From Hanleya hanleyi (lineage: Eukaryota > Mollusca > Polyplacophora > Lepidopleurida > Hanleyidae), in contig JAVTVY010018944.1 of NCBI GenBank assembly GCA_036873755.1, forward strand, positions 18,115 through 82,114: DNA of 64,000 nucleotides, written 5' to 3'. The notes beneath the pieces are model-generated. The model was not told where the DNA came from. It worked only from the letters and a program-made list of their open reading frames with translations, and ran no database searches. The translations under genes and the position numbers were made by a program. Positions 501 to 60,043 of the stretch are shown here, piece after piece; the first letter of the stretch is position 1, and every line of letters begins with the position of its first letter.

Positions 501-508
501 GTAGAGTC

Positions 509-518: not shown

Positions 519-564
519 GGAATGAACATGTGTCCATCATCAGTCCATATGTATTGGTCGACTG

Positions 565-1732: not shown

Positions 1733-1734
1733 AA

Positions 1735-1935: not shown

Positions 1936-1945
1936 CATTACTGTC

Positions 1946-1953
1946 TATAAAAG
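1946..1953 (+). promoter_or_regulatory. TATA box of the second zinc-finger gene
   Basis: A consensus tataaaag sits 54 bases upstream of the ATG at 2000, leaving room for a start site near 1976 and a short leader. It is the clearest core promoter in this part of the window. Confidence 0.7.
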
Positions 1954-1999
1954 CGAGCGTATTTCCAAAAACACGCACAGTCGACGTTCAACCGTCAAC

Positions 2000-2572: not shown

Positions 2573-2616
2573 AATAAACGGTTCAGAATGAACATGACCG
2601 AAGAAGGAACTCTCTG

Positions 2617-3090
2617 AAATGGCGACTTCTGATTGGACAAGAATACATCTAACGGGCAGGAACAAATAGGACAGATGCAAATGGCGGTCTCTGATTGGAC
2701 AAGAGTCTTTCTTGAATTGTAAACATACCCAACGCGGCTCCCCCAGCGTGGGTATGTTATGATGGAGGGGAAAATAAACTATATGAAAAAAAATCTTGCT
2801 GTTGTTGTTCCCTCATGTGTCATCCTTGTTGTTGTTTTCTCTCTCCGGTCTATATCATGGCGTCAAGGCGCTAGCGGGACCCATACAGGATCCAGTTTTC
2901 GACACTAGGTGACCACATCCCGAAAATGGCCAGTTTTCGACACCGGATGTGCCGCCATCTTGAACATACGTGCCGCCATCTTGGATATGTCCCATAATGC
3001 ACCGGGTCAAAATACTCGCTTCTGATTGGCTGAGAGCTCTGTGACGGATTTGAAATACTCGCTTCTGATTGGACGAGAGCTCCGCATTGC
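2617..3090. repeat. Four CCAAT-like repeat units (CTTCTGATTGG)
   Basis: The word (c)ttctgattgg followed by ac(a/g)ag or ctgag occurs near 2628, 2686, 3020 and 3063. The last two lie inside a longer tandem unit (aaatactcgcttctgattgg...gagagctc). ATTGG is the reverse of a CCAAT box. Between them are two copies of a ccagttttcgacac word (about 2890 and 2930) and two of gccgccatctt. No reading frame here looks real. Confidence 0.55.
2722..2778 (+). terminator. Hairpin and polyadenylation signal after the zinc-finger genes
   Basis: A near-perfect inverted repeat (about 2722-2735 against 2746-2758, one extra A in the left arm) is followed by AATAAA at 2773-2778. It lies about 200 bases after the stop codon at 2572. 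It is a plausible 3' end for the zinc-finger transcription unit. Confidence 0.5.
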
Positions 3091-4773: not shown

Positions 4774-5020
4774 CATTTTGACCACCACACACGCCGCCAT
4801 TTTGACCACCACACATGCCGCCATTTTGACCACCACACATGCCGCCATTTTGACCACCACCACGCAGCCGCCATTTTGACCACCACCACACAGCCGCCAT
4901 TTTGACCACCACCACACAGCCGCCATTTTGACCACAACCACACAGCCGCCATTTTGACCACACTCCCACAGCCGCCATTTTGACCACCACCACACCACAG
5001 CCGCCATTTTGACCACACAC
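4774..5020. repeat. GCCGCCATTTTGACC minisatellite, about ten units of 24-29 bp
   Basis: Nine exact copies of gccgccattttgacc plus one degenerate leading copy are separated by variable CA/CCA spacers. The core matches the published YY1-type consensus (reverse AAAATGGCGGC). Three overlapping minus-strand frames rich in Trp, Lys and Gly are translations of this array and not genes. A perfect 18-bp palindrome containing CACGTG follows at 5039-5056. Confidence 0.9.
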
Positions 5021-5202: not shown

Positions 5203-5446
5203 TCAGCGAAACGGATTTGATATTTTCGGAACATCATGATGACTTGCCGGCATCATTGAAAACTATTGACCGCTTCTCTCTTGCAGGAAACAAGCCTATG
5301 TTTATGTATGTATACTATGATTGTCTTTTTGAATTTGGTGCTAATACTGTTATATGGAAAATGAAATAGGTCTTTGGATTATGGACGCGGATATTCTCTA
5401 ATGGACGACGGCTGGATTATGAATGACGGACTAGACGCTTGTAATT
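5203..5446 (+). repeat. 5' pseudo-LTR of PLE copy 1
   Basis: It matches 8842-9085 base for base apart from a handful of substitutions (for example ctattgacc versus ctgttgacc). It contains a pyrimidine-rich tctcttgcag, which looks like a splice acceptor, and a ctgat/cagcgaaacgg-type word near its start. Confidence 0.85.
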
Positions 5447-5546
5447 TTAACCTGTGTATGCCTGGATTCTGCTGGTGGACAAGTTGTCTCCGAGGCCGGG
5501 CCCCTGCACACCCAACAAACATAATGAGCACAACTAAAAGAAAAAT

Positions 5547-8528
5547 ATGAAGACAGACCCGAGGAACCTTAGTGCAGGTTTCTCGGCCGAGTCTCTAATA
5601 GTTCGAAATGCACTAAGACCTTTTTCAATCCAAATGACAGATATATTTCTGACAGCAAAGCAAGGCCACGACATCAAACCTTGTAATATTGCGCTTGATG
5701 ATTGTTTAGCACCGAATTCTACATGTAATAATTTCAAAATTTTTAAGTGTGGACATCGTGGATGTCTCATGTGTCCACTCTTTAATACTTCAGATGCATT
5801 TAGTTCCGCGTTAACTGGTAACTCATATTCTGTTAACTGGTATGTTGATCTTAGTTGTTCTACTAAAAAGTGTATGTATTTAGTTTCCTGTAAGAAGTGT
5901 GATCAACAGTATGTTGCCAAGACCACCCAAAGACTCCATCTTAGGGTGAACGGTCACAGAAAATCCGTTGGGAAAAAGTAATTGCTTATAGGTAAGCATT
6001 TTTCTGGACCCGACCATGGCTGGGATAACTCTAGTATTCAGATCATAGACGTCGTCTATCCATCTACTAAGGATTCCCCCTTTGGATTTGAGAGAAAAAT
6101 CCGAGAGCGGGAATTATTCTGGATGCTAGAACTTGGGTCAGTGTTTCCGTTTGGTTTAAATGATAATGTCAGCGGGTTCGGCAATGCTACAAACGCCGTT
6201 CAAATATATCCAACATTACCCAACTATTTAAACCCCATCAACGGAGACATCGCAGCCATGGTTGGCGAAAGTTTAATAGTTCGATGGTTCACGATCATAC
6301 CACTTTAAATTACTTAGTGGGTTTAACTAACACACTCAATAGTATACATAGCTTACGTACAGTTCTGTATGCGTTACCTCTGAGAGCTTTAGATCAAATA
6401 GCCAGAGATATACAACAATCTGCGTCTTCAGGAAAAATAATACCACCAAAAATCATTAAAGTATGTCAAGATGTAGCGTATTTTCGGTTGTATCGTCCAG
6501 TGAACATAATCGAAACATCTCAAGATCGGCTTTTCTTGAAACTCAACTACTTAGATAAAGGACTGGTCATCATTAATTTACCTCGAATCCTGAATGATCC
6601 AGAGGTACGCAACGCTGTACCAAACTATTTTAGGTTCACAGAACCTCCTTGCATTTCATATAAGTATACTAAATCTATAGCCACCAAAATATTCAATTAC
6701 TCCAATGCTGTCCAGGAGTTTGACTGGAACTTATACACGTCAGGAGGCTATAGTTGTGAATCGTTGAACTTTATCTATACACCATGCAAACATATTGTAA
6801 ATGGTAACCTTGATGTGGTGAGTGATAAGGACCTAAAATTACTCCTGATGAGTACCAAACTATTTTAGGTTCACAGAACCTCCTTGCATTTCATATAAGT
6901 ATACTAAATCTTTAGCCACCAAAATATTCAATTACTCCAATACTGTCCAGGAGTTTGACTGGAACTTATACACGTCAGGAGGCTATAGTTGTGAATCGTT
7001 GAACTTTATCTACACACTATGCAAACATATTGTGACTGGTGACCTTGATGTAGTGAGTGATAAGGATCTGAAATTACTCCTGATGAAAGGACCTAAATAT
7101 AGAGAGCCAAGAAGAATAAACCTGAAGGCCGACCAGAAGATAGTCCTGTCTGCATTGGAACAGTACGTTATTGATTGGTCTAAGCGAGAAAAAGTTGAAC
7201 CTACATTATTGGCTGATTGGCTGGACCTCACCAAGAGGAAGGTCGTTGAAACAATCCGCCATATTGACAGAAGTACTCTTCCCCAAGCAAAACAAGTACT
7301 GAGAAACTTCAATTCGCAAGAAATTCTAGCAAATCTCCAGAGTAAATTCGTCATAGTCCCAGCAGACAAAGCTCCGAATAATATAATCTTCAAATGTAAA
7401 TATTACTATTACCAGGTGCTGGTTAAAGAATTGAGTGTAAAAATGTCTTCATCAAATACGTCTACTTACTCCCAAACTGCATTTACTCTGGAAGATATAT
7501 TTAACAATCACAAAAAGTTTCTCAGGGAAAGAGGTATTTGTCTTCCAACCAATCATAACGACATACCAAAACTATACTGGACTCCCAAAATGCATAAAAC
7601 ACCATACAAAGCTAGATTCATAGCTGATTCTAGAAGCTGCACCACCAAGCTTCTTTCACCCCTATTGACGAGGGCCCTTCAGGAGGTAAAAGCATTTTGG
7701 GAAAGGTATTTCGCCATTATTTCTAAGAACTCTGGCGTTGAATGTATGTGGATATTGAAAAACTCAAAATGTCTTACGGAAGAACTTGATGCTAAAGGTC
7801 ACATACCGTACAGACATGTATCCACATGGGATTTCTCGACTCTCTATACTGCAATCCCTCATCAGGACCTTATTGACCGTATAAGTTCATTAATAGTATC
7901 TGTGTTCAAGAAAACTGATCGTAGATATATTGATGTCGGAAGCCATAAAGCATTCTTTAGCTCTACTACATACAAGAGATATCATTCATGGGATGTTTCT
8001 TTGTTTGTAGAGTTGCTTGAATTTCTCATTAAAAATATCTATGTGAAATTTGGCAACACTATATATCAGCAGCATATAGGTATTCCAATGGGTACTAATT
8101 GTGCACCCCTGTTGGCTGATCTGTATCTGTTCTCTTATGAATATGACTATATGCAGGCGCTTTCAAAAACCGATCCTTTCAAAGCCGGCCGATCCTTCTC
8201 ATTCACCAAACGCTATATAGACGATCTTCTCTCTGTGGATAATCGCTATATAAATGACGCAGTGAAGGATATATATCCACCTTCACCGGATTTGAAGGAA
8301 ACTACAGATAGCCGTACAGGCACACCATATTTAGACCTATATCTCTATAAAAATGAAGCGGGCATTCTCTCTCGTCGACTTTATGACAAAAGAGATGATT
8401 ACAGTTTCGACATCGTATACTATCCCTTTCTGGACAGTAATATTCCAGTGGGGCCTGCATATGACGTATACATATCTCGCTTAGTAGCATTTGCTAGATC
8501 CTGTATTAAATGTGACGATTTTAATTAA
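5547..8528 (+). pseudogene. PLE polyprotein: GIY-YIG-like endonuclease then reverse transcriptase (broken)
   Basis: The first frame, 5547-5981, has a CGHRGCLMC zinc-binding motif, then a YLVSCKKC...YV(A)KT...LR...H stretch typical of the GIY-YIG-like domain of permuted PLEs. An in-frame TAA at 5979-5981 interrupts it; the frame then continues to about 6300, shifts to the frame of 6284-6868, and is broken again by a 235-bp tandem duplication. The last frame, 6999-8528, holds the PLE-type RT: an RT0-1 region with KARFIADSR, motif A WDFSTLYTA (about residue 275), motif B GIPMGTNCAP (about 360), motif C RYIDDLL (about 404) and a PYLDLYL motif D. Such RTs are related to telomerase and prime at the target site. 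With three or more breaks the element cannot make one protein from this copy. Confidence 0.85.
6617..7086 (+). repeat. 235-bp tandem duplication inside the PLE coding region
   Basis: Unit 1 is 6617-6851 and unit 2 is 6852-7086; they differ at a small number of positions. The unit length is not a multiple of three, so it breaks the frame. The corresponding part of PLE copy 2 (about 28455-28700) is single, so the duplication is specific to this copy. Confidence 0.9.
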
Positions 8529-8841
8529 CGTCACAAAACATTGGTGCAGAAACTTAAAAAACACGGCTATTCCACCAAGCGCCTACACTCAAAGTTTCTC
8601 AAATTTGGCGATACATATCGCATTCTGATAGCAAAATACGAACGTAGCGTGCAAGATCTATGGCTCTACCTTTCGTAACTTGTGTCTAATTCCGCTTAAC
8701 CCGGGTCTAGGGCCCGTATGAACCCATGTACTTCAAGAACCTCATGGTACTCATATGAACAGTCACAATCAAAGCGTGACTGAGATACATCATTCTTTAG
8801 ATGACGACTTTACAACGAATATTATGGATTAAGAATACTGA

Positions 8842-9085
8842 TCAGCGAAACGGATTTGATATTTTCGGAACATCATGATGACTTGCCGGCATCATTGAAA
8901 ACTGTTGACCGCTTCTCTCTTGCAGGAAACAAGCCTATGTTTATGTATGTATACTATGATTGTCTTTTTGAATTTGGTGTTAATACTGTTATATGGAAAA
9001 TGAAATAGGTCTTTGGATTATGGACGCGGATATTCTCTAATGGACGACGGCTGGATTATGAATGACGGACTAGACGCTTGTAATT
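8842..9085 (+). repeat. 3' pseudo-LTR of PLE copy 1
   Basis: Direct repeat of 5203-5446. Upstream of it, 8690-8840 is a 3' untranslated region also present in copy 2 (cttaacccggg... and agtcacaatcaaagcgtg words). Confidence 0.85.
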
Positions 9086-10099
9086 GCACCTACACCAGAC
9101 TCTCGTTGGCAAATCCCAACTTTGAGATCGAATGCATCAAAGATGGGACACAACATTATTTTCATTGTTTTCGTTGTATTTGAAAACAACGTCTTTATTA
9201 AAATTTTTGCAACTTTTTCAGGCCTTCTCATGTGTCCCTTTAATTGTTTGTCAGTGAAATGGTGCATATGTCAATGAAACCCCATATATGATATGTTTGG
9301 TAAGGTAATTTACATATTTCACGTTTTCATAGCTTCGGGATTATTCAGTCGTTTATATATCGCGATAGTGTGTGTCATTTGGTTATCATTCTTCATGCTG
9401 AAACTCGATTAAACACAGGAAGAAAAACCTTGAATCCTTGAATACTGAATAATTTATTTTTCTATTGAGAAGAAAACAAAATTCCCTCACATCATCGCCT
9501 TCATCCTGGATCCAGTGTTCATGAACCCGACGAGGTTCTTTGTCAGTGTCCAGAAGTTTGCGAGTTCACTGCTACTGTCGATTGGGCTATTGGTTGTCAG
9601 TGCACAGGAAACAAGACGATCATGCCATATCTCCAATGAACGACGATATGTTACCTGGTAATAAACTTCTGTGCGTTCTTTCGTTTATTATTCTGTCCCT
9701 GAGCCTATTTGGTAACTGTAGCTATAATGGACATCTCTTTATTAGTGCATTTCGGGCTAATGAGTTGGAACGTTCGCTTCACTGATCCAACGCACTGGTC
9801 TAATGGATGGTGTCAATATTAAAGCAGTTTACAAAGAACCGAGTTAGTATACAATGAGGAATTGAATAAACACTAATAGTAGTTCCTTGAAACAATGTTT
9901 ATCTACGCAATCTTTTAACTCCGCCGCATTGATATATTATCAATTAAATACACTGGAGCAGGTGGCCGTGAATAGCTAATGAAAACTTCAAAACTTTTCT
10001 GTAAAGGAGAAAAAATATATAGAGACGGGAAATATCAATTTGAAGGTCGACTGGAAGATTGCCCGAACTACACTTAGTATACACAATATTGAGAGAACA
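9086..10099. other. Unassigned; one Cys-rich exon candidate
   Basis: No family recognised. Around 9505-9635 a plus-strand frame encodes a short Cys-rich stretch with CQCPEVCEF and GCQCTGNK before a TGA. It could be a terminal exon of a secreted or EGF-like protein, but no convincing splice partners were found. The rest looks non-coding. Confidence 0.25.
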
Positions 10100-19139: not shown

Positions 19140-19690
19140 TGTATACAGTAGATCGGGTATGGCCGATTCTACATCGCCTGACCATGGCTTGATCGAAACG
19201 TTTCTGGCTACGCAGATGAATATATCCTACAGGTTTTTTTAACTGATAAAGCTTGCTGTTATCCACAGCATCCCATAAAGATTGAAACAGCTTTCTTACA
19301 TAAGCACACATAGAGAACCGCTACATTGGATTCCAACAGGATCAACCTCATGATCTAGGGCTGCCTTAGCCATTTCTTCAGCGTCTGTATTTCCTTTGAT
19401 GCCAACGTGGCTAAGCAACCAACAGAGCAAAATCAATCTGTTGATGAAATCTAAGATCATATAATTGTAGAAAGTTCAAAATGGTGTGGTGAGTTGGAGT
19501 TCCACTCTCCATCGCTTGAAGGCATGACAGTGAATGTGAGAATATGACATATTTTCCTCCTATAGCAGACCCAATACCTTTTGAAGCTAACAATAGAGCT
19601 TTGGCTTCAGCATGGAAAATCGAACTCTTTCCTGGAAGTCGACAGGTTTTAGTTTCGGAACTAAAGCTAGTATATCTAATTTTGAGTCAT
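19140..19690 (-). mobile_element. LINE 3' fragment (RNase H and C-terminus), minus strand
   Basis: Minus-strand frames match the LINE at 10.1-11.7 kb: an RNase H region (FSHSLSCLQAM near 19500), a SQKRFDQAMVRRCRIGHTR stretch near 19190, and a gacaggttttagtttcggaactaaa match at 19640. Its RNase H end abuts the open frame that runs into receptor exon 2, so coding signal before 19819 should not be read as part of the receptor. Confidence 0.7.
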
Positions 19691-19818
19691 GTTCCAAACT
19701 TTTGTTATAGCAGCAATAGTGCATAAATACGTCTTGGAACTCAAATACTTGTCATACTTTGTCATGCCACTACTGCCACCGATATCACCAACTATCTTCC
19801 CCCTTTTATTTCTTGTAG

Positions 19819-22800
19819 TGATCTGGTCAGCAAGGTCGGGAATAGGTGATGAAAATAATACCAATAACGCAATGGTTGGTGAATCTATACAATTACCACA
19901 TGGAAAGACTATCAAGGGAGAAGGAGGGGACAAAGGAATTGATTTGGGTGGCATTGGTATACCTGCTAATTCTTTTGGGCTCAGTGGGTCTAACCAAAGT
20001 CCTACCTGTTGGTTACGTGACCTCTGCTCAGGGCGATGTGAACTTTCATCTCGTGTTTTCGATAAAAAAATCAGCAACAGTATCCCGTGCAAATGTGACC
20101 AGCTATGTGTAGTATTTGGAGATTGTTGCGTTGACTATTTTCAAGAATGTTTCAACCTCACCCAAGACGGAGAGTCAGAGCTTGTTACGAACGTAATGAC
20201 CGCCATACAGGAATATTTGGTCTTTGTAAATGTGAACGAAAGCGTACCTAAACGACAAGTGCCCGATATTGCAGCGTCCTGTACTGTATCATTGAGAGAG
20301 CTATCGTCCAACTTCACTCTCGAAAGTCTTTTCCTTGTTCAAAGTTGTTTTCAATGTAAACGGCTGACAATATATGATGATCGCAAGTTCACCAAAAAAT
20401 CCCTCCACGTGTTAACAAAATGCCCGATCTTAGGGGAGAAACAGTCAACCAAGGTGGCTTGTGAGTCTCCTAAACCTCCTTTATTCAACATACCCGTGCA
20501 AGACATTAAGGAACCCGCCCTGATTTACCGCAATATGCACTGCGCAATCTGCCATGGTAAAGAAGTTGCTGACGTCTCCCAATGGATTCCTGCCATTTCT
20601 TGTCCGGAACCTGAATTCACAGAGATCATTCTTAATTCAAGTAACGAGATAAACGAATATATAGAAGGAAAGTGCATGATTGGTTATACTCCAACGAACG
20701 CAACCTGGACCAGGGCTGAGTGTCCGTACGATCACACATTCAAAGAATTACCAACATTGGTTAACTCATCGAGGATCAATATTGAACTGAAGTTGTGTCA
20801 GTTGTATTTCGACCCAGTTTCTCATCCACTTAATAGAAGCACGATTTATCGGAATGAGCACTGTGCCAACCTTGACATGGTTCGCAATTTAGATTGCCTC
20901 GATATAAAAGAATTAGAAAGCGATTCCATACCGGGACCGACCTTGATAGTAAAACCATTGTCCGTATTGTTCAGTTTCAAGAATTCCGCTGTCGGTATCC
21001 AGTATGGGGAAGAAATCATATATTTATCTCCTGCTGAAGGCGAGGAATGTTCAGTAGATGAGGTTTACAGCTTCTTAAGCCGGAGATGTGAGAAAAATCT
21101 TGCAACGATGTCACTCACAGAAACTGAAATGTTCATCCATATCGATATCCGCGTGTTGTCCAGTGTTTGTGGTCTTGTCGTCCCAGATATAGGTAGTTTT
21201 TTGGGCTCTACTTTACTTTTGGGTGAGGACAAGGCATGTGTTACGCTAGAAGCCACCGAATTTAAGTTAGCAACGCGACAGGAGAATGCGACGCTTGTCA
21301 TTAATGAACAACCGTCAGCCATTGTGAATTTGCTTCTCACTAAACCTGATGGCATGAATACCCAAAAGTGCAAAAGCAAGATACATTGTGGTTGGTGGCA
21401 CATAGATTACAAGGAGTTGAATAACTTAGAACATAAGGCCACCACTGACCAAGATTATTGCGAAACAGAGCTAGACATTTTGTTTGAATCGGATGATTTA
21501 GCCTGGGAAACCTTCGTCGATTTCTTGAAGAACGTGAACGAGGCAATTGACAAATATTCTGGAATATTCTATAGCCCTGACAGGGAATTTATTTTGGTAT
21601 ACGAGAATATCAGCGTCACTAATGAGAACAGAGAATCGAATAAGACCTGTCCATCCGAAAACAGAGTGGATATCGCCTATACCGTTAACGAGGAGAACCC
21701 ATGGATTCTTACCCTAGACCAAGAACCTTCGCGAAATATAAGTCTACAGAACTGGGCCTTTTTCTTGGATTACCACTTTGGTTCAAACAGCAGCAATGGA
21801 CGACATGACTTTAAAATATGTGACCAGTTCGGTAGCGGGGACCAATACTGGTTTCCTAATTGTAACGTTGTCTTTTCGGTTGATCACACAAAATACTGGA
21901 CAAAAGATGGAAATCTTTACATCAGCGTTAACTTCAATGTCTTTAAGATCAGCAAATATCAGAAGGTAAAAGGTACGATGTATTACTGTGCAGATTCAGT
22001 GATAAAAGTACCCGATGTTCTCCATGATAACTCGGTCCTCACAATTGTTAGTTTAAGTTTATCTCTCACTTCACTTCTGTTCGTGATTATGACATACACA
22101 TTTTTCTCGCCGTTGCGCAATCTCCCTGGAAAAATAGTTATTGGCCTGACTTCAAATCTCTTCTGTGCGATGCTTCTGTTCCTGTTTGGTACAGGACAGA
22201 CTAAGAATCCTGTTCTCTGTACTATCATGGCTGCTCTTCTTCATTTCTTCTGGCTGGCCTCATTCTTCTGGACAACTGTTCTGTCTTTCAACCTAGCTCA
22301 AACTTTTGGCTCCAAAACTATGACTGTCCGATACGAGAAAAAATCTTTTCTGTATTACTGCACATATTCATTCGCTGGTCCGCTGCTAATTGTTCTTGCG
22401 ACACTTCTGGAAGGGTTCTTTCACAAACCTGATTCCTGGGTGCATGGCTCTTATGGCAGTGCTGCTGCCTGCTGGATCAGTCAACGATGGGTGAACATTG
22501 TCGCCTTTGGCTTGCCCGTTGGACTCACGGTTTTGCTGAACACTGTTATGTTTCTGTATACCGTCCGAAGTCTCTATAAGATATCCAAGATAACCAAACG
22601 TGTCCATAAAAAGGAGAATCGTGGACAATCGACAATCTTGTATTTCAAACTGTCTCTCATAATGGGACTCTCCTGGGCTCTATTCTTTTTATCCGGCGTT
22701 CTGGAAAATGAGATTCTACGGGCTCTCAGTATTGTCCTCAATGCTCTACAAGGCTTCTTTCTGTTCCTTGTTTTCGTGTGCAACAAGCATGTGTACACTT

Positions 22801-22895
22801 TATACAGGGACGTGTTCCACAGTTTCACCTTGAAAGGACAAACCCTTCCTGCCGGAACTGAAACCACACTTACCAGCAAACAAAATCGGATCTAA
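19819..22895 (+). CDS. Receptor gene 1, exon 2: somatomedin B class B/Methuselah-like GPCR
   Basis: Acceptor AG at 19817-19818 follows a pyrimidine tract (cttcccccttttatttcttgtag). Joined to exon 1 it gives about 1,038 residues. After the signal peptide, a somatomedin B domain (about 77-121) has the Cys pattern ending GDCC...C. A long Cys-rich ectodomain carries a YRNMHCAICHGKE motif and many N-glycosylation sites. The 7TM domain spans about 750-1005; the first segment is TIVSLSLSLTSLLFVIMTY, a Cys before TM3 and a CWIS in loop 2 would form the usual disulphide, and LRNLPGKI, GQSTILYFKLSL and GLSWALFFL fit family 2 receptors. No GPS cleavage motif is evident before TM1, so an autoproteolysed adhesion GPCR is less likely. 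The frame is also open upstream to 19689, but that part is intron and pyrimidine tract. The ligand is unknown. The paralogue is at 56075-59181. Confidence 0.85.
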
Positions 22896-27291: not shown

Positions 27292-30200
27292 ACGCTTAAC
27301 CCGGGGTTAGGGGCCGTATGAACCCATCTGCTGGTGGACAAGTTATCCCGGAGGCCGGGCCCCTGCACATCCTAAATTCATCATGAATACAATAGAAGGA
27401 AATAATGGTAAGACAGATCCGATGAACATTATTGCATGTTCCTCGGCCGAGTCTCTAATAGTTATAAATGCACTAGGACCTTTTTCAGTCCAAATGGCAG
27501 ATACATTTCTGGAAGTAAAACAAGGTCTCAACATCAAACCTTGTAACATTGCGCTTGATGATGGTTTAATACCGAATTCTACATGTAATAATTTTATCAT
27601 TTCTAAGTGTGGACACCGTGGATGTCTAAAATGTCCACTCTTCAATACTTCAGCTGCATTTAGTTCCGCGTTAACTGGTAACTCATATTCTGTAAACTCG
27701 TATGTTCATCTTAGTTATAATACAACAAACTGTATTGATTTATTTTCTGGTAAGAAGTGTGGTCAGCAGTGTGTTGGCAAGACCACCCAAATACTCTATC
27801 TAAGGGCGAATGGTCACAGGGCAATTGCTTATAAATAAGCATTTTTCTGGACCCGACCATGGCTGGGATAACTTTAACATTCAGATCATAAACGTCGTCT
27901 ATCCATCTACCAAGGATCCCCGCATTGGATTGGAGACAAAAATCCGAGAGCGGGAAATATTCTGGATGCTAGAAATTGGGTCAGTGTTTCCGTATGGTTT
28001 AAATGATATTGTCACTGGGTTCGGCAATGTTACAAACCGCCGTTCAAATATATCCAATATTACCCAGCTATTTAAACCGTATCAACTGAGGCATCGCAAC
28101 CATGGTTGGAGAGAGTTTAAGATTGAGATGATTCACGAACATATCACTTTAGATTACTTAGTGGGTTTAACTAACACACCCAATAATATACATAGCTTGC
28201 GTACAGTTCTGTCTGGGTTACCTCTGAGAGCTTTAAATTATATAGCGAGAAATATACAACATTCTGCGTCTTCAGGAAATATGATACCACCAACACCCAC
28301 TAAGCGTATGTCAAGATACAGCGTATTTTCTACTGTATCGTCCAGTGAACATAATCGAAACATCCAAAGATCGGTTTTTCTTGAAACTCCACTACTTAGA
28401 TAAACGACTGGACATTATTATTTTACCTCGAATCCTGAATGATCCAGAGGTACGCAACGCTGCACCAAACTATTTTAAGTTCACATAACCATCTTGCATT
28501 TCATATAAGTATACTAAATCTAAAGCCAGCAAAATATTCAATTACTCTAATGCTGTCAATGAGTTTGACTGGAACTTATACACGTCGGGAGGCTATAGTT
28601 GTGATTGTGAATCGTCGAACTTTATCTATACACCATGCAAGCATATTGTGACTGGTAACCTTGATATGGTGAATGATAATGACCTAAGTTTACTCCTGAT
28701 GAAGGGACCTAAATATAGAGAGGCGAGAAGAATAAACCTGAAGGCCGACCAGAAGCTAGTCCAGTCTGCATTTGAGTAGTACGTTATTGATTGGTCTAAG
28801 AGAGAAACAGTTGAACATACAGTACTCGTTGATTGGCTGGACCTCACCAAGAGCAAGGTCGTTGAAACAATCCGCCATAGTGACAGAATTATCCTTCCCC
28901 AAACAAAACAAGTACCGAGAATCCACAATTCGCAAGAAGTTGTAAATCTCCAAAGTAAATTCGTCATAATCCCAGCAGACAAAACTCAAAATAATATAAT
29001 ATTCATATGCAAAGATTATTATTGCCAGGTGCTGATTGAAGAATTGAGTGAAAACATATCATCACGAATTACGTCTACTTACTCCCAAACTGCATTTACT
29101 CTGGAAGATCTATTCAACAATCACAAATCATTTCTCCTGGAAAGAGTTTTTTCTTTCAACCAATCATAACGACATACCAAAAGTATACTGGACTCCCAAA
29201 ATGTATCAATCACTATACAAAGCTAGATTCATAGCTGGTTCTGGAAGCGCACCACCAAGCTTCTTTCAACCCTGTTGACGGGGGTCCTTCAGGAAGTAAA
29301 AGCATTTCGGGAAAGATATTGCGCCACTGTTTCTAAGAACTTGATGCTAAAGGTCACATACCGTACAGACCTGTATCCACATGGGATTTCTCGACTCTCT
29401 ATACTACAATCCCTCATCAGGCCCTTATTGACCGTCTAAGTTCATTAATAGTATCTGTGTTCAAGAAAACTGATCGTAGATATATATAATGTCGGAAGCC
29501 ATAAAGCATTCTTTAGCTCTATTACATACAAGACATATCATTCATGGGATGTTTCTTTGTATATAGAGTTGCTTGAATTTCTCATTAAAAATATTTATGT
29601 GAAATTTGGCAACACAATATATCAGCAGCATATAGGTATTCCAATGGGCACTATTGTGCACCCCTGTTGGCTGATCTGTATCTGTTCTCTTATGAATATG
29701 ACTATATGCAGGCGCTTGCAAAAACCGATCCATTCAAAGCCCGTTCCTTCTCATTCACCAAACGCTATATAGACGATCTTCTCGCTGTGGATAATCGCTA
29801 TATAAATGACGCAGTGAAGGATATATATCCACCTTCACTGGATTTGAAGGAAACTACAGACAGCCCTGCAGGCACATCATATTTAGATCTATATCTCTAT
29901 AAAAATGAAGAGGGCATTCTCTCTCGTCGACTTTATGACAAAAGAGACGATTACAATTTCGACATCGTAAACTATCCCTTTCTGGATAGTAATATTCCAG
30001 TGGGACCTGCATATGGCGTATACATATCTCGCTTAGTAGCATTTGCTAGATCCTGTGTTAAATGTGACGATTTTAATCAACGTCACAAAACATTGTTACA
30101 GAAACTTATGAAACAGGGCTATTCCACCAAACGCCTCCACTCAAAGTTTCTCAAATTTGGCGATACATATCGCATGCTGATAAAAAAAATACGAACGTAG

Positions 30201-36519: not shown

Positions 36520-38307
36520 ATGAGCATCAGTTTGACCAGCGCAACAATCGGTGAAAATGATTACACTCTAGGTGGTGCTATGTCTGAATGAGCATGGATT
36601 CAATCCAAGACGAGTGAGTGAGTGAGTGAATAGAATTTAACGTCGCTTTCAACAATATTTCAGCTATATCACGACGAACCAATCAAGCACCACCCAGCCC
36701 AGTTGTGTTCCTGCTTCTTTGAAGCAGCATGGAACCAGACACCCTCCATCCACACTATAAAATACTGAGTACAGCGCACAAGATACAGACAGGCCGCTTT
36801 CATGGCGCAATAAAGACAAGTGATATTACAATGCTAGACATAACATTATATCAAGTTCCTGTTGCTTCTCAAAAATTGCAAAACAGATTAACAAAGACAG
36901 ATTTTATACAATCACGGACAAATCCTAACAGGTAGAGCGAACACAGTGCTATCCAATCACACGGTCTGACCAATCTAGGTAAACCAAGATGGTAAATCAG
37001 GGGAATGCCATATATAATTTTCCGTGGTATTATATCTGAATTTACTGAGATTGACGATTTGACCAAAGCAACAATCAGTGAAAATGATTACCGTGTACGT
37101 GGCGCATTGCCTGAATGAGCATGCATTGAATGCAAGACGGTAGCATTTCCATACATTACAAAGCAGATTATCAAAGACAATAACGAACAAATCCTACCCC
37201 GGAAAAGCAAACACAGTGCTATCCAATCACACGGTTTGACCAGAACAGCAATCGGTGAATATGGTTACCGTGGAGGTGGTGCTATGCCTTAACCCTGTTA
37301 GACCTGGCGGGCCATCATGGACCCCTCATATCAAACTTTCTGTCATATCTAAGGAGCGACAACAACATGGAAGCAGACTTTTTAGTTTCTCATGTTGGGG
37401 TCATTTTGAACGTATTTGCATACTCCCCAAACAGAGGATCACGGGTAAATCCAAAATGGCGGCCATGTGAGTTACCAGAAAAGCGATGTTTTCATCATTT
37501 TTCTTCAAACTTTCTGCTTTTCCTCGCGGAAGAGTGGGTAAAAATAATTTTACTTCACATCGGACTATTATTTACTAATTTATGATGCAGTTTTTGCAAG
37601 AAAAATACATAAATAAAAAAAATCGAAAAATATGACCGAAAAATCGACCAAAAAAGCAATTGGTCTGACCTCGCGTTGAAGTGGGTAAAAATGATTTTTT
37701 TTGAACATCGGACTATTATTTACTAATTTATCATGCAGTTTTGGCCAGCAAAATACATAAATAATAAATTCGAAAAATCGACCAAAAATGCATTTTTGAA
37801 ATTGACGTCACTGTGACGTCGTCAAATGTTCTGTTTGCGTGATCCAAGGGTGTCTCAAGTGGTAAGAAAACTATTTGGGTGTGTGTGTGTGGTGTGGGGG
37901 GGGGTGAAATAGCCCCCCCCCCCCACCCCAGGCATGGACAGGTAAAAAAATCCAAGGTTAGATTGGGTTAATTAGCATGCATTGAATCCAAGACTGTATC
38001 ATTTCGATATATTGCAAGACAGATTATCAAAGACTGATTTTATTCAGCAACGAACAAATCCTGACCGGTAAAGTTAACACAGTGCTATCCAATCACACGG
38101 TTGACCAGAACAGCAATCGGTGAATATGATTACCGTGGAGGTGGTGCTATGCCTTAACCCTGTCAGACCTGGAGGGCCATTATGGACCCCTCCTACCAAA
38201 CATTCTCTCCTATCTCCGGAGCGACAACAACATGGAAGCAGACTTTTTAGTTTCTCATGTTGGGGTCATTTTGAACGTATTTGCATATTTCCCGAACAGA
38301 GGGTCAT
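36520..38307 (+). repeat. Dispersed repeat X cluster (several partial units)
   Basis: Units share ccaatcacacggt(t/c)tgacc, aacaatcggtgaa(a/t)atg, gtggtgctatg(c/t)c and, further on, acaacaacatggaagcagac and aaaatggcggccatgtgagtt. Units or partial units are seen at 36520-36610, 36870-37000, 37050-37960 and 37970-38307. The last one is interrupted by the transposon at 38308. A gastropod-type gagtgagtgagt tail repeat lies at 36610-36680 (minus). Confidence 0.7.
38303..38307. repeat. Left target-site duplication, gtcat
   Basis: gtcat directly precedes the left terminal inverted repeat and is repeated at 43007-43011 directly after the right one. Confidence 0.9.
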
Positions 38308-38351
38308 CACACCCTGCATACCAAACGGCTGCTCCAACTTCCGCCGGAGGG
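38308..38351 (+). repeat. Left terminal inverted repeat
   Basis: Perfect 44-bp match to the right end. Its inner end contains ttccgccggaggg, the first of the subterminal CCGCCGGAGG motifs. Confidence 0.9.
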
Positions 38352-38727
38352 AAATTACAAATTTGAGAAGCTAAGTAAGTTCAGATTTTTCATTTTTTTG
38401 GTAGTTTTCACGTATTTACTACTCGAAAATTTAATGAGAAAATGTTCTCAAGGGGGCGTGTTAGCAATTCGTGTGAAATTTTCAACTCGTCCTTGTATTA
38501 TTTTTTAATTACAATTCATTTTATCTGACATTAAGAGCTATATTGCAACATAACAGTGATTAGATGCTTAAAAAATCATCTATTTGTGCATCATCCGCCA
38601 AATAAGTTATATATATATGAAGAGTAGTTCCTTAACAGCAGGCTGATAGCTTGTAGTTTCAAATAGTTCAATCTACTTCGGTCAATGTTAGTTTTTCTAG
38701 CTCATGCATGTTCGTATATGGTACAAA

Positions 38728-38770
38728 TACCGCCGGAGGAGCATGTCTCGAAGATATGATTACCGCCGGA
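38728..38770 (+). promoter_or_regulatory. Left subterminal motif pair, TACCGCCGGAGG
   Basis: Two copies at 38728-38737 and 38761-38770 in the same orientation, 33 bp apart. Their mirror images occur 32 bp apart at the right end. Paired sites at near-integral helical spacing in mirror orientation look like transposase-binding sites; this is inference. Confidence 0.6.
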
Positions 38771-40218
38771 GGATCTAATCTCTAATTGCGTTTGTGTATG
38801 TACACGATCAGGCCACTTTACTATATGTTAACCATGCAGATATAGCCCTGATCATCACTAATTTTATCCTCGACATTTACGCTCCATCGTGCCAACTCGT
38901 GTATTGGCCTAGGTGTTCTCATCAGCAGTTTGTAACCCCCTAAACTGTCGGTGAAACAGCGATATTTCTGACAGTATAAGGTATACAATCTGACGCCGTG
39001 AGAATGTTGCGAATGTGTATCCGTCAGATACAGTCTAGGTATCGGATAACCCTCAAACACTTTTGAGAGCATTTATTTAGAGCACCATTAAGCGTTTCTA
39101 AACAAAAAGTACCGTAATAGATAACAATTTATGAGTTTATTGAGTTGTTTAAACCACACGATTTATGGAAAATTAAGTAATAAAGCTAGGTGGCAACTCA
39201 CTAGGTTAGCGTTACACTATGATGAAGATCAAAGCAGTGATGCGAACAATGTGACGAGACAATAATAACATAAAGACTGAAAATAAATCCGAAATGGTAA
39301 ATATCGTAGCTAGTACTCAACACGGCATGTGCAAGAAACCCAGACGCGGGCGTGGTGTGCACACGCACTGACATCCCGGCTCACGTACGGCTCTCCAACC
39401 GGTCCAAATATAGCATTGTTCGAGATGGGAGGTCCGGTTATAAACTGCTATATCTGAAAAAATATAGGTTCCCCCAAACGTATTTACCCCTACAAAGTTT
39501 CTACAATATATCACCTTCCCTATGCTACAAATTAATGTAATTTATGATTTTATTTGGCGGATCTAAATTCGATTTAAACGAAGAAGTAGTGTGAATCCCT
39601 TCTCCATGTTAAACGAAACGAGAGAATGCCTTGGCCGACAGCATAGGTCTACAAAAGACGATTGATTTCACCCTCTTGCATTACCAATGAAACATTTATT
39701 TACCCCTCACCAGAAAGACAAAATTCATGTAATTATATTTGTGAAAAAATATGAAAAATTACGTCAAAACACTTTTGAAAGAGAGCGAAATTCAGCTTTT
39801 TTGGCGAAGTCACGGTCGGCTGAACACCTACGGTTGTGTCTGATTGGACGAAAGTGAATATGCTGGACAGCGGACTGAGGTCAACATATGGTCAGCGTAT
39901 AGCGTGTGCGAGTTTAGTCTCATTGATATGTGACTGGCTTTCTTTGGTAGGCCTTATGTTTAGAACTGATCCAGGCGATGATAGCGCCCAACTATTGTGA
40001 TTCAAGCGAGATTTAGACCTCAGACCATAAATGACGAGGAGTTGTGTGTTTAACTCCGTGGATTTAGTTTAAAGGTTATACAAAATGGTCTCAAAATCTG
40101 CTACTTTTTTGTGCTAAATTGTTGTAGAGGTGATTATATAGACTTGTTTTACATTTTTGTATGTTTTCAAACTGCCCAAGGTTGGAAATAGCAGCAATAA
40201 ACTGTCCGTGTACGAGTA

Positions 40219-40608
40219 ATTTGCCCTTGCCCGCTAGTAGGCGCTCGAGTCAGGGGGGACAAAATGTGGACTGGATAACATGTAAAGAGATAGGGCGGCC
40301 TGAAATAGTGACATAAATTGAGCAAACGGCATTTCCAAGAACTTCAAAATTGAGCTAGGTGGCATGACAGATCACCCTTGTCAATTTAATATTTTTTATT
40401 TGCACATATCCACGTTCAAGACGACATTTTCTATTGTAACGCCAACGACGTCATTAGATAAAGCGTAATGCCCTTTGTTTTACGTCATGATGCCGTCGTT
40501 ATATCCGTTTGTCGCATGACGTCACAATACAACGTTGCTACAAGAGCGATACATTGTATAGGTTTTGTCCTACCCGACTCAAACGCCCACTGGCGGACAG
40601 GAGCAAAT
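40219..40608. mobile_element. Fold-back element with about 48-bp imperfect TIRs
   Basis: 40219-40266 (atttgcccttgcccgctagt...) and the reverse complement of 40561-40608 (atttgctcctgtccgccagt...) match over most of 48 positions. The interior has no reading frame. Nested in the 4.7-kb transposon. Confidence 0.7.
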
Positions 40609-40858
40609 ACTCTTACCATTACAGTTTGGAGACTTCCTTAATCCATGCCCCTTTCAAAACGGCGAAAGCTGTGACCGCTTGACCGCTTGACCTGTGACGT
40701 CACAACCTGATTACGATCTCGCTCAAATGCCTGTTGTGACGTCCAAATGTCAGCGACATCAAGCTAGAACTCCCACAGTTACGTGAATCTTTCGTAACAA
40801 CGCCCGACGTCATAGACTATGACGTTTACGGCGCAATCGTAATCAGGTTGTGACGTCA
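40443..40858. promoter_or_regulatory. Cluster of TGACGTCA (CRE-like) words and a 22-bp inverted repeat
   Basis: Full or near-full CRE words occur at about 40450, 40483, 40516, 40695, 40735, 40805 and 40851. The 22 bp at 40695-40716 are the exact reverse complement of 40837-40858. CRE sites bind bZIP factors in animals; function here is not shown. Confidence 0.5.
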
Positions 40859-41010
40859 TGCACCAGAGGTCACGGCTTCAATACGTTTTCCCCCACATGT
40901 GTGCTATTCGTGTCCTAAAACCCAATAGAAAAAAATACTAATTTGTTGTTTGGAACACTACTGGGTATGTTTTAATGCAAAGTAGTATAGAGTCATTTGG
41001 TATAACCTTT

Positions 41011-41476
41011 AAAGACGTTCCTCACCTTTGCTGATGCGCACAACGTCGCGCATGTATTTATAGCGCGAATGTCAAATGACGTTGCAGTAGGTAGTCTCCC
41101 TTCGATCACGCTGATAACAGCACACACCATAAATTATATAGGCTTTAACAATTCGACAATTCCATGAGCAAATTATCATTGAATTCAGATGGAAATGGTC
41201 CAGTCTGAAAGACAAAGACCACGTGAACATGAGCAGCGCCCATTGATATTCGGTGGTGTGTGACAATTTTTGGAGCAAAATCGTACAATTTAAATTTCAT
41301 CATTTTTTTTTTACAAATTAGACAAAAACGCCCCATAGGTGGCGTCATGAGCTTGAAAGTGAGTTCGATGACTTAGTAATTTTTTTCTTGAAATGAATTT
41401 GTATATTTCCAAGGTACATCCGTGCAAAATTTGGTGAAATTCTGAAGATGATTTCTTAGGGTGAGGAACGTCCTTT
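41011..41476. mobile_element. Second fold-back element, ends AARGACGTTCCTCACC
   Basis: 41011-41026 is inverted at 41460-41475 with one mismatch. The two frames inside (41072-41348, minus) have no recognised domain. No clear target duplication. Confidence 0.45.
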
Positions 41477-41527
41477 TATTGGGCCTAAAGATTGTGGTTC
41501 AAGCCAGATTCAGATCTCAGACCATAC

Positions 41528-41748
41528 ACTGCGAAAAAATTGTGTTGAAGCCATTTTAGCACCAAAATTGTGTTGAAAATAACGCAAATTATGTAAGAAT
41601 GAACACTAATTTGTATTGAACTCAACACAATTTTGTGTTGATATAAAAAGTTAAACACAAAACCATGTTGATTTCAACACAAAACATTTTGTGTTGAAGC
41701 CATTTTAGCACAAAATTGTGTTAAAAACAACACAATATTTTTTGCAGT
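41528..41748. mobile_element. MITE with ACTGC...GCAGT ends and AACACAA internal repeats
   Basis: Ends actgcgaaaaaattgtgttg and its inverted partner aatattttttgcagt, with internal inverted copies of attgtgttgaagccatttta and aacacaa words. A related stretch at about 39998-40035 (cagaccataaatg) looks like the empty site, pointing to a TA target duplication. Confidence 0.65.
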
Positions 41749-42515
41749 ATAAATGGTGTGTTTAAGGTGGTTCATACCTCAAAACTTTGTCCGGTGACCA
41801 ACCCCAATATTTTTGTTGTGGGTAGCTGGGGTGCTGACCAGTAATAAAACGTAAAAAAAAATTATGGTCTTCGATCTAGATTTTTTTGTACGTAGCCGCG
41901 AATATCACCATATCAACCGTTTTTTTGCCGAAATCATGAAAAATCAGTTTTCTGCGCAACAAGGCGAGAAAGTCAAAGTATACTTATATATATTCACAAG
42001 TATTGTTTATTTATAATGAGAAACTTTCACGGGTCTTAGAAACACCGGAAAGTTGAACATAAATGCAATAATTGTATATGAATTAGGCATTTCATCGAAC
42101 TGTATGACGTTGGAAATTACATTTTCAGACTATGAAACCCTCTCCCAAATCGAAAATCACCCGGTGACCTATACTGATATTTTAAACACAGTTTCCCCAC
42201 CATGTGATCTTTTTATTAACCAAATTTTATATAAAATGCTTTGAGTGACCATATCCCCATAGTTTTCTAATATTTGCGACGGCATTACCTCCCCTGGTAA
42301 CGTCTGTTATCAGGAAAGGCGATATATGACGTTGGAAGAGTTATTACAGGGGAAGTAACCCTGTGTGATGACGTCGCCGACGTCGTTTGAGGTTTGATCC
42401 ACCTTAACTCAGAGGATTTCGCTTTGAAATAGTATCTTTTTCATTTGTTCGATGGATTCAATATTGAGTGAGGACGGTACATTCATTTATCTCGGCCAAG
42501 AAGGGACAGTGGTAC

Positions 42516-42579
42516 TCCGGCGGTAATTGTGTCATATTATTATTGACTCCGGCGGTAGTCAGATCTCACTCCGCCGTAT
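42516..42579 (-). promoter_or_regulatory. Right subterminal motif pair, inverted TACCGCCGGAG
   Basis: Copies at 42516-42525 and 42548-42557 (tccggcggta on the plus strand), 32 bp apart, with a degenerate third at 42570-42577. They mirror the left pair at 38728-38770. An extra copy of the TIR inner motif stands at 42945-42960 next to the right TIR. Confidence 0.6.
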
Positions 42580-42962
42580 GTTGTATCACCACTTCCACAC
42601 AGGTCATACTCATGCGTCTTAAAATCATCGAAATTCTTCCTTTTCACATATAAATATCATCTTGCCATTAAAAGGCAACCTCGTTTTACAGAACGATCGT
42701 AGGTATATTCTTGATTAATTAGATAAAATGCATATTTGATGTAGTTTTTCTAAGAAAGGTTTCTAGATTCGGCTTCTAATGGATGTAATTGTGTATTTAG
42801 AATTATCCCGTTTTCAAAAACACGTCAGCTAGTTAAATATACGTACCATCTAACGATTGAGACAATTTGATATTGTTGATAGGGTATGGTTCTGACATAT
42901 TAACGTAAAAACCAACAAGTTGTCCTACCATTTTTCACGATCTTCCCTCCGGCGGAAGTTCA

Positions 42963-43006
42963 CCCTCCGGCGGAAGTTGGAGCAGCCGTTTGGTATGCAG
43001 GGTGTG
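42963..43006 (-). repeat. Right terminal inverted repeat
   Basis: Exact reverse complement of 38308-38351, followed by the target duplication gtcat at 43007-43011. Confidence 0.9.
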
Positions 43007-43920
43007 GTCATGGGTAAATCTAAAATGGCGGCCATGTGAGTTACCAGAAAAGTGATGTTTTCACCACGTGCAGGGTAATTATTTTCATCGATTGTTGCTC
43101 TGGTCAAACCGTGTGATTGGTCTTTGAAAATCTGTTTAGCAATTTTTGAAATGCGACCGTCTTGGATTGAATCCATGCTCATTCAGGCATAGCACCACCT
43201 ACAGGGTTATCATTTTCACTGATTGTTACGCTGGTCAAACTGATGCTCTGAGAGAAATCTTGTTACAATCGCGTAACTATCTTAGAAAATATTAGCCAAT
43301 GCTTAGAAGGGAACTTAATTTTGTTGAGGTGTTTATTTATAGAGCTATGACTCACCAAACTCGTATTCTAATCAGATAATGTGTTATGTTCAGCCAAGGC
43401 AACACGTGTAGTGTTCGACTTGGATACGCGAAGATACCATCTCCGGAACGACAAAAAATGAGAGATGAGACTTCGTGACTTTGGGGTCATAAGGAGCCTA
43501 GTTGCATGACCCCTGAGCAGAGGATCATGGGTAAATTCAAAATGGCGGTCATGTGGGGTATCAGGAAAATGATATTTTCGTCAGATTTCTTGAAATTTTT
43601 TGCTTTTCTGCATGGGAAAGTGGATAAAACCTATTTTGTTTCATAGCAGATTACTATTTACTAATTTATCATGTAGTTTTTGCGAAGAAAACAAATTTAA
43701 AAAAAGGAGAATTCTGACCGAAAAATCGTCCAAAAATGTCTTTTTTGAGAATGACGCCACTGTGACGTCATCATGGCGGCTATCTTTGATTTTTTCACAT
43801 TTTTTAGTAGAGCTTGGCCCAAAAATATAGTGTGGTAAGTCCGCTCCACTCCATGTGATTTTCCTCAAATCAGTCTGAAATTGACCCCAACCTGGTCTAG
43901 GACTGGTTTACCCCTCATGT
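43007..43920. repeat. Rest of the interrupted repeat X and further X copies
   Basis: 43007-43075 continues the unit cut by the transposon at gtcat. 43080-43260 is an inverted partial unit (ggtcaaaccgtgtgattgg, ggattgaatccatgctcattcag). 43440-43920 is another copy with an intact gaggatcatgggtaaattc site, an aaaatcgtccaaaaatg part and a tgacgtcatcatggcgg word. No gene. Confidence 0.65.
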
Positions 43921-56074: not shown

Positions 56075-59000
56075 TTACATCCGACTTTGTTGTGGGGCTT
56101 CGTTTTCGGCACGAAATTTTTGTTCTTTCATAATGAAGCTGTGGAAAACATCCTTGTATAGATTGTACACACGTTTGCTGCACACAAAAACAAGGAAGAG
56201 AAAGAAGCCTTGTAGAGCATTGAGGACAATACTGAGAGCCTGTAGAAGTTCATTTTCCAGAGCCTCGGACAAATAGAATAGAGCCCAGGAGAGTCCCATA
56301 ATGAGAGACAGTTTGAAGTACAGGATTGTCGATTGTCCGCGGTTCTCCTTGTTACGGACACACTTGGTTATCTTGGATATCTTGTAGAGGCCTCGGACGG
56401 TGTACACGAACAGAGCAGTGTTCAGCAAAACCGTGAGTCCAACGGGCAAACAAAAGGCGACAATGTTCACCCATCGTTGACTGATCCAGCAGGCAGCAGC
56501 ACTGCCATAGGAGCCATGTACCCAGAAATCCGGTTTGTGAAAGAATCCTTCCAGAAGTGTCACAAGAACAATCAGGAGGGGACCAGCGAATGGATATGTG
56601 CAGTAATGGAGGAAGCGATTCCTCTCGTACCCGACAGTCATAGTTTTGGAGCCAAAAGTTTGAGCTAGGTTGAAAGACAGAACAGTTGTCCAGAAGAATG
56701 AGGCCAGCCAGAAGAAATGAAGAAGAGCAGCCATGATAGTACAGAGAACAGGATACTTAGTCCGTCCTGTACCAAACAGGAACAGAAGCATCGCACAGAA
56801 GAGACTTGAAGTCAGGCCAAGAATTATTTTTCCAGGGAGATTGCGCAACGGCGAGAAAAAGGCGTATGTCATAATGACGAACAGAAGGGCAACAAGAGAT
56901 AAGCTTAAACTAACAATTGTGAGGACCGAGTTATCCTGGAGAACACCGGGAACTTTTACCCCTGAATCGGCACAGTAATACATTGTACCGTTTAGCTCCT
57001 GATACTTGCCGAATCTAAAGACGTTCAAGTTAATACTGATGTACAGATTCTCATATTGTGTCCAGTGTGTGATGTTTTCAACAGAAAGGACAGCGTCACA
57101 ATTATAAAACTCGTCCAGGCCCCGGATACCAACATTGTCATATATTTTTAACTCTTGTCGGCTATTGCTGCTGTTTGAACCAAACCAGTGGTCCAGCAAA
57201 AAGGCGGAGTTTCGTAGGTTAATATTTCGCGAAGGTTCTTGGTCTATGATAAGAGTCCATGGGTTCTCCTCGTCGATAGTGTATGAGATATCTTCAGATA
57301 GGCAGGTCTTCCTGGATATTCTATCCTGATTTGTGACACGGATGTTCTCGAATGCCAAAATCACTCCTCTGTCCAGGTTATAAAAAAATCCAGAATATTT
57401 GCCAATTGACTCGTTTAGGTTCTTCAACAGGATGACGAAGGTTTCCCACGCCAAATCTTCCGATTCAACCAAAATGTCCAGTTTCATTTCGCAATAATCT
57501 ACGACACCGATTCCTTTCTTTCCTAATTGATTTCTTGCAGAGTTCATCTCATTGTAATCTATGTGCCACCAACCACATGCAATCCTGCTTGTTGCCGTTT
57601 CGATATTTACGTCCTTAAGCTTCATGAGAAGCAAACCCACAATGGGTATCGGCTCTTGATTAGTGACATAAGTCACATTTTCCTGCAGTGTTGTTAACTT
57701 AAATTGTGTGCCTCCTGGCGCAACACAGTTCTGTTGTAGGGCATCGAAGAACAGAGTAGAGCTCAGAACATATTCTATATTTGAAGCGAGAACATCACAA
57801 GTACCAGCTAAGACGCGGGCATCGATTCGAATGGATATATTAGTTTGCGCGAGAACATTCATTGCCAAATTGCGTTCACATCTCTGGTTAAGGAAGTTGT
57901 AAACTTCGTGTCCCGAGCATTTTTTGTTATCGTCCGAAGATAAGTGTATGACTTCTCCATCATACTGTATACCCACGGATGAATCCCTGAAGTTAAACAG
58001 AACGGACAAAGGTCTTACTACTGTAGAGAAATCTTCAGAACTCCCCTCTACGCCGGCCATAATCTCTTTGTCGGAACAACAGAAATTGTGAACACCGTCA
58101 AGGCGGGCACAGTGTGCATTTCGATAATTCCTTGTCTTATTTGATTCTTGAGACACCGGCTGGAAATACAGCTGACACATCTTCGTCTCGATATATGTTC
58201 CCGTAGTGTTACTGATGCCGATCATCGGTAATGCCTTGAATTTGTGGTTGTATGGGCACTCAGCTCTGGTCCAGCCTGGGGCTGAAGGTGTATAAGCAAT
58301 CTCACAGTTTCCCTCTATATAATCCTCTATTTTGTCGCTCGAATGACGGATGATCGCTGCGAGTTCATCTTCATTAAGGCAAGAAACAAAACTACTCCAC
58401 TGAGTGACGTCGTCGAATTCCTTACCATGACAGAATGCGCAGTGAATATTACGGTAAATGATGGCGGGTTCGTTACGATTTTGCACAGGAGTGTTGAACA
58501 AAGAACGGTTCTGATACTCACACGCTGCCTTGATTGAATTTTCCTCCCAAAGAAGCGGGCATTTTGTTAATAAGTTCAAAAATTTATCTTTGAACTCGTC
58601 CTTGTCTTTGATTTTCAGAGTTTTACACTCGAAACACCCTTGGACAGGAACAAACTTTTCCAGTGTGAAGAGCTTTCCGAGCGTTGCGAAACAGGACGTA
58701 GGTATATCAAGAGTTTGACTCTGGGGAACGTTGCCGTTCACTTTACCAAAGTCGACATGTTTCATTACGGATGACAATACGTTCAAAAATATCTCTGACT
58801 GCCTATCCTGGGTGAGGTTGTAACATTTTCCAAGAAAGTCAAAACAACAATCTCCAAAAAGTACACAGAGTTTATCGCAGCTGCACAAGGCATTCTCGCG
58901 TACTTTTGCTTCGAGTCTGTGTGATGAAAGATCACATCGCCCGGAGCAGCCATTGTCAGAAACCCAACAGTCGAGAGACGTGTCACTAAAAATAGGGGTC

Positions 59001-59181
59001 TCGCTATTTCTGGATGAATTATATCCACCCAGATCCAGATGGATGGATGTATTTTCCCAATACAACCGAAAGTCAAAACTTCCCTGGGTCGTGTTTATCG
59101 GTGTTAATAACCCATTGTTTTCAGTAATTTCTTCATCAATATCACTTTCAAAAACCTTCGCCGAACTCGTCGAGCAGAACA
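56075..59181 (-). CDS. Receptor gene 2, exon 2: somatomedin B class B/Methuselah-like GPCR
   Basis: Paralogue of receptor gene 1. The acceptor (ttttctcctgtttactttcttgtag) ends at 59182 and, joined to exon 1 at 60044, gives about 1,048 residues in the right phase. The order is signal peptide, somatomedin B (about 85-130, CWVSDNGCSGRC...GDCCFDFLGKC), Cys-rich ectodomain with YRNIHCAFCHGKE and IACGWWHID, and 7TM (about 760-1015) ending in a short basic tail. The 7TM part is nearly the same as in gene 1, while the ectodomain is much more diverged with the Cys frame kept. The frame is open to 59302 but this upstream part is intron overlapping the minisatellite; it also contains the pyrimidine tract. 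No stop or frameshift was found. Confidence 0.85.
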
Positions 59182-60043
59182 CTACAAGAAAGTAAACAGG
59201 AGAAAACGTCACAGTCGATAGCATCCATGGTAACACTAAGGCAACAATACTAAATACAGGAAAAGGGGATGGGGTCCGGGTATCATTATTTACTGACAGC
59301 AAAATGTGGCGGAGTTTGGGTATTATTATTTAGTGAGAACAAAAGCTGATGGGTTCTGGGTATCATTATTCAGTGACGACAAAAGAGAATGGGATCTGGG
59401 TATTATTATTTATTGGGAATAAAAGATGATCAGATCTGCGTATCATTATTTAGTGACGACAGAAGGTAATATATGGTCTGGGTATCATAATTTAGAGGGG
59501 AACAAACGATGATGGGATAAGCATGGGTATCATGATTTAGAGGGGACAAAAGTTGATCGGGTCGGGGTATCATTATTTAGTGAGGACAAAAGGTGATGGA
59601 GTCTGGGTATCCTCATTTAGTGGGGACAAACGGCGATGCGGTCTGGATATCATGACCGCAAAATGCGAAGACCAAATCTGTTACAAATAGGGTGATGAAG
59701 GTCAGATCGTCACACAAAATGTTAAGAATAGGTGTCATCATCAAGATATTATTATGGTCTATGTGGACAGGTGTCATCACCGAATAGGAGTAATGATGGA
59801 TTATGGTCATGCCTCGTCTTATTGGCGACAGTGCAATCAATTTGTTTGGTACTTATCACCTTTCTTCTGTTTCTGTGTGATCATGATGATAATAGAATAT
59901 TATTTGTATACCCGTTACTGTCGTTATGTTGTCTTTTTTTTTACCCGCCGTGTGATATGGATCTGATATAAATTGCCGAAAATATGGCAGATATGGTAGG
60001 CTATGTGATAAATAAACGAAACATTTTCTAAATATGTACTTAC
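59182..60043 (-). other. Intron of receptor gene 2, with a ~48-bp minisatellite
   Basis: Donor GTAAGT (minus, 60043-60038) and acceptor AG at 59183-59182. The satellite at about 59268-59655 is eight or nine units of ggtctgggtatcattatttagtgaggacaaaaggtgatg with variation. Gene 1 has a 4.36-kb intron at the same place and phase. Confidence 0.7.

Follow-up and report, generated by a model that had tools for sequence, protein, structure and literature searches.

The window analysed here is a stretch of 64,000 nucleotides from the polyplacophoran mollusc Hanleya hanleyi (assembly GCA_036873755.1, contig JAVTVY010018944.1, positions 18,115 to 82,114 of the forward strand). It contains an element of 4,699 bp with terminal inverted repeats (TIRs) and a target-site duplication. 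The two arms, at 38308-38351 and 42963-43006, were exact reverse complements over 44 bp, and both were flanked by GTCAT (38303-38307 on the left, 43007-43011 on the right), a 5-bp duplication without mismatch. Across positions 37801-43500, no exact inverted match exceeded these 44 bp, and the longest in each of 15 base-shuffled versions was 11-18 bp (shuffles, here and in the end-consensus test below, preserved base composition only). Flanks joined with a single GTCAT were aligned without gaps to positions 37243-37497 of the window, with 236 of 255 bases identical. The element is an insertion into a repeat, and the related copy of that repeat at 37243-37497 is uninterrupted. A first-pass annotation made from the letters of the window had described a complete insertion with perfect 44-bp TIRs and a GTCAT duplication, in a repeat that is intact elsewhere in the window, and both points were borne out.

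The host genome (2.48 Gb in 52,793 contigs) was searched for further copies, and many were found. The whole element used as query yielded at least 148 matched pieces (40 of 7,664 first-look candidates scored). With 40 of 982 candidates scored, the left 64 bp matched at no fewer than 40 places; 36 of these were new, and at 31 the full 64 bases were identical. Thirty-eight stretches around copies were examined, plus 600 bases from the interior of 20 further copies, taken from the 36 new places. A perfect 5-bp duplication was present in 18 of the 23 two-ended copies, the window copy included; this count leaves out twelve one-ended loci and five without ends (L036, L042-L045). The first-pass annotation had named a lack of other copies with 5-bp duplications as a finding that would refute its reading; the reading withstood this check, since 22 two-ended copies besides that of the window were compared and 17 of them showed a perfect one.

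The ends of the copies share a common structure. CAC was the start of 56 of the 58 ends listed. An 18-bp unit, AACTTCCGCCGGAGGGTG or near it, occurs twice in many ends, which gives a 64-bp inverted end, and once in several others and in the left end of the window copy. The right arm of the window copy belongs to such a longer end (42943-43006) with the unit in tandem. Further inside, 411-484 bp from the tip, two more CCGCCGGAG sites 32-33 bp apart form a second pair, which is mirrored at the opposite end. Exact CCGCCGGAG sites numbered 3 to 8 per copy in the 23 copies, and all eight were present in L016, L020 and L026. In the window they lie at 38341, 38730 and 38763, and in mirrored orientation at 42515, 42547, 42947 and 42965. 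Being repeated and mirrored, they are putative transposase binding sites.

The window copy consists of a core of about 3.1 kb and two nested inserts totalling roughly 1.57 kb. It has no stop-to-stop frame of 110 or more amino acids, in agreement with the first-pass annotation, which had seen no transposase in it. Ten larger copies (4.1-5.2 kb) were 97.6-99.9% identical to one another where aligned, and their majority sequence has no frame above 128 amino acids. The six frames of L018 gave no Pfam match at E<=1. Large inserts lengthen some of the other two-ended copies, L017 and L022 among them; the rest measure 2.4-3.6 kb. No transposase gene was found in the window copy, the ten-copy majority sequence or the six frames of L018, and no coding region could be assigned to the element. 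Positions 41540-41740 of the window, in the interior of the element, hold a short array of degenerate repeats around TTGTGTTGAAGCCATTTTAGCAC.

The 600-base interiors of the 20 further copies revealed other internal subfamilies, and no frame above 103 amino acids was found in them. Those of L047, L049, L056, L057, L058 and L061 have a stretch in common that matches the middle of L035 at 81-84% identity, which suggests at least one more internal subfamily. The 600 bases from L062 had no match to known copies.

Inverted ends, a duplication of fixed length, multiple copies and an empty site, which together mark non-autonomous TIR-type elements, were all found. We are confident that the window element belongs to a young, multicopy family of non-autonomous cut-and-paste DNA transposons; this conclusion is not specific to a superfamily. 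The following observations weigh against it. Five of the 23 two-ended copies are without a perfect 5-bp duplication: in L011 one of the five bases differs and 4 bp match exactly, in L028 no more than an exact 4-bp match is seen, and L022, L027 and the second copy in L013 show neither. Frames of 131-850 amino acids were present in L009, L010, L017, L021, L022 and L023 (15 copies scanned); all of them lie wholly or partly within sequence missing from the compared copies, and the L009 frame was the only one tested singly against Pfam. No autonomous copy was present among the copies examined, in a genome that was not searched with transposase profiles.

At L013, the copies at 491-4833 and 5409-9753 are 576 bp apart and 99.9% alike in aligned bases; AGGACGCT follows the right end of both, and the matching left duplication is present in the first copy only. 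The pair may be a local duplication or an assembly effect. At L009, element positions 813-1665 are occupied by an 852-bp nested hAT-like insert with CAGGCCTGGGC-type ends. Its 138-amino-acid frame has a zinc-finger-like CxxC...HxxxxH pattern and no significant Pfam match. This frame was considered as a transposase remnant and rejected: the insert around it is missing from the other copies compared, and Pfam gave a best E value of 0.53.

The family is unnamed as far as checked: the CACACCCTGCATACC end was not found in the open-access texts searched, which did not include Repbase and Dfam. The element had no match in phages or plasmids, and the 25-base end pattern had none in IMG/VR. The 64-bp right end gave only two phage matches, at chance level (E 2). 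Rfam gave nothing at gathering score in the window, with sub-threshold matches in the window and in some of 15 loci and none in one further scan.

The age of the window copy was estimated from its ends. On ends alone its nearest relative was L024, at a difference of 1.9%, and the tip branch of the window copy was about 0.75% (L017 was left out of this comparison, no orientation could be assigned to four copies, and the values for L038 carry no meaning). These distances suggest that the window copy moved fairly recently. The first-pass annotation had argued for recent activity from the identity of the arms. Fairly recent activity is upheld. For very recent movement, however, the identity of the arms says little, since near-identity is the rule among the 58 ends.

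Target preference was determined at 17 sites, with L020 excluded because its target repeat is shared with L016. The preference is palindromic, C-nTnAn-G. Of 34 half-sites, 22 have T at position 2 of the duplication (binomial odds 7e-6 against flank composition) and 5 have A there; 19 have C directly outside the duplication (2e-5).

As no autonomous copy was found, the acting enzyme is one that we infer. A DDE/D-type transposase, encoded elsewhere in the genome by an autonomous relative, would act on the ends in trans. It would bind the repeated sites and cut at the outer C of CAC; the ends would be joined to target strands 5 bp apart, and gap repair would produce the 5-bp duplication.

The superfamily of this transposase was weighed from duplications, targets and ends. 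One tentative candidate, somewhat short of an even chance, is a transposase of hAT5, the hAT group with 5-bp duplications. The group is described in PMC12730594, and its duplication length is that of the present family (18/23); the comparison covered duplication length and target preference. In a survey (PMC10294476), hAT is among the richest superfamilies of molluscs, as against a single Transib element. T and A were found at the second and second-last positions of the duplication, as in the hAT pattern nTnnnnAn, by an analogy carried over to 5 bp. In its T/A pair at positions 2 and 4 the preference resembles the hobo target GTNCGNAC and the P target GTCCGGAC, which have T as in this family (PMC3276498); since P elements show the feature too, it does not single out hAT. 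The present ends were tied to no hAT transposase, and no hAT profile search of the genome was made. Inverted ends of less than 64 bp are usual in hAT elements. The target of Drosophila Transib families is CCANTGG, with A and then T at duplication positions 2 and 4 (PMC3276498). The hopper and transib2 elements of Drosophila share with the present family the 5-bp duplications and the favoured C just outside, and differ from it in having A/T where it has T/A (same source). CCANTGG, a motif known for Drosophila Transib only, was not the preference at the 17 sites. The target preference appears to count against a Drosophila-type Transib more than against RAG-like (RAGL) elements, as it was compared with Transib and not RAGL motifs. 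An enzyme from another group, of CACTA/Mirage/Chapaev type or from an undescribed lineage, is rather improbable. In PMC12730594 these lineages, together with Transib, have 5'-CA..TG-3' ends and duplications of 2 to 5 bp; nothing positive links the family to any single one of them. The repeated subterminal sites are reminiscent of CACTA elements. Members other than Transib are known to make duplications of 2-4 bp.

It is also rather improbable that the enzyme is a Transib or RAG1-like transposase and the family a non-autonomous RAG-like one. Transib elements start with CAC, as do the present ends. Duplications of 5 bp (18/23) and CAC ends (56/58) agree with Transib and RAG-like transposons (PMC7204232), and non-autonomous RAGL elements have been described in an oyster (PMC7204232). 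The present end begins CACACCCTGCATACCAAACGGCTGC. Its first seven bases, CACACCC, also start the RAGL end element of Aureococcus, CACACCCAAACCT (AanRAGL; PMC9435367). The first-pass annotation had judged the match to known heptamers to be poor; CACACCC differs from CACTATG (ProtoRAG) and CACAGTG (the recombination signal sequence, RSS) and equals the start of AanRAGL. AanRAGL also has 5-bp duplications, but that source places AAACCT directly after CACACCC and shows two asymmetric ends (4/13-bp spacers), unlike the present family. Protostome RAGL ends read CACTWMCAAACKTYKBB, with 5-bp duplications (PMC7204232), and share with the present family the CAC start, a CAAAC block near the tip and non-autonomous copies. 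Bases 12-25 (TACCAAACGGCTGC) agree with 13 of 14 positions of the block TWMCAAACKTYKBB, a score equalled by 5 of 20,000 shuffles; these odds are flattering because the comparison was made after the consensus had been seen. The block is expected from position 4 and was found from position 12, a displacement of 8 bp inwards. Aligned in register from the tip, the end scored 7/17, a chance-level value that 10,338 of 20,000 shuffles attained, and TGC stands in place of AAA at positions 8-10. Similarity of RAGL ends between species is limited to the outer 13-15 bp (PMC7204232), whereas the present inverted end is 44-64 bp long. No RAG1L or RAG2L was seen in the copies examined. In ProtoRAG the two ends differ from each other and contain the conserved blocks TR1 (CACTATG) and TR5, whereas the present ends are alike. 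The half-site counts (T 22, A 5 of 34) also stand against the A at position 2 of the Drosophila Transib target. The first-pass annotation had proposed a non-autonomous member of the Transib and RAG-like group: a non-autonomous element with a 5-bp duplication was confirmed, and membership of the group was not, the leads from the ends being mixed and the target pointing away from Drosophila Transib. The odds of a hAT transposase with 5-bp duplications are no lower than those of a Transib or RAG-like one. A RAG reading is possible for this family. That it represents a large, recently active non-autonomous RAG-like or Transib family, in which CACACCC and the CAAAC block lie 8 bp further apart and the long, alike ends carry repeated predicted binding sites, unlike the short RAGL ends described, is unlikely.

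If the transposase is RAG1-like, the many young copies would provide natural data on the variation of RAG-like ends and targets. If it is a hAT transposase, CAC ends and 5-bp duplications would be insufficient to claim RAG kinship.

Table 1. Features of the transposon copy and of its target repeat, in window coordinates.
Feature	Positions	Strand	Basis
Left target-site duplication, GTCAT	38303..38307	.	Direct reading; empty site
Left terminal inverted repeat, 44 bp, CACACCC start, one 18-bp unit fewer than right	38308..38351	+	
Left subterminal pair of CCGCCGGAG sites (38730, 38763)	38728..38773	+	
Nested insert 1, inverted ends of 20 nt, flanked by TTTAAA left and right; L009 has the empty site	40068..41013	.	
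Nested insert 2, 22-nt inverted ends, TTAA on both sides; site empty in L009	41762..42407	.	
Right subterminal counterpart of this pair, as CTCCGGCGG (42515, 42547)	42513..42557	-	
Right end, 64 bp; outer 44 bp (42963-43006) a perfect inverted repeat; 18-bp unit twice	42943..43006	-	
Right target-site duplication, GTCAT	43007..43011	.	
Empty-site relative of the target repeat, 236/255 identical to joined flanks	37243..37497	+	

Other parts of the window were annotated as follows; a protein search with one window gene found no homologue at E<=1e-30. Long single-frame genes of 1,069 and 1,084 amino acids, with 7tm_2 and somatomedin B domains, lie at 19686-22892 (+) and 56078-59329 (-); they are paralogous, intronless adhesion-type receptors on opposite strands. 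Adjacent frames at 526-2572 (+) contain C2H2 fingers and a stretch with a P-loop (GPTGCGKT), which weakly matched AAA; by eye they recall fragments of an ATPase of DNA-virus or Polinton-like type. Retroelement frames form two related sets, at 5538-8528 and 27311-30200, which by eye look Penelope-like. The 558-amino-acid frame at 6852-8528, in the former set, gave a sub-threshold match to RVT_1.

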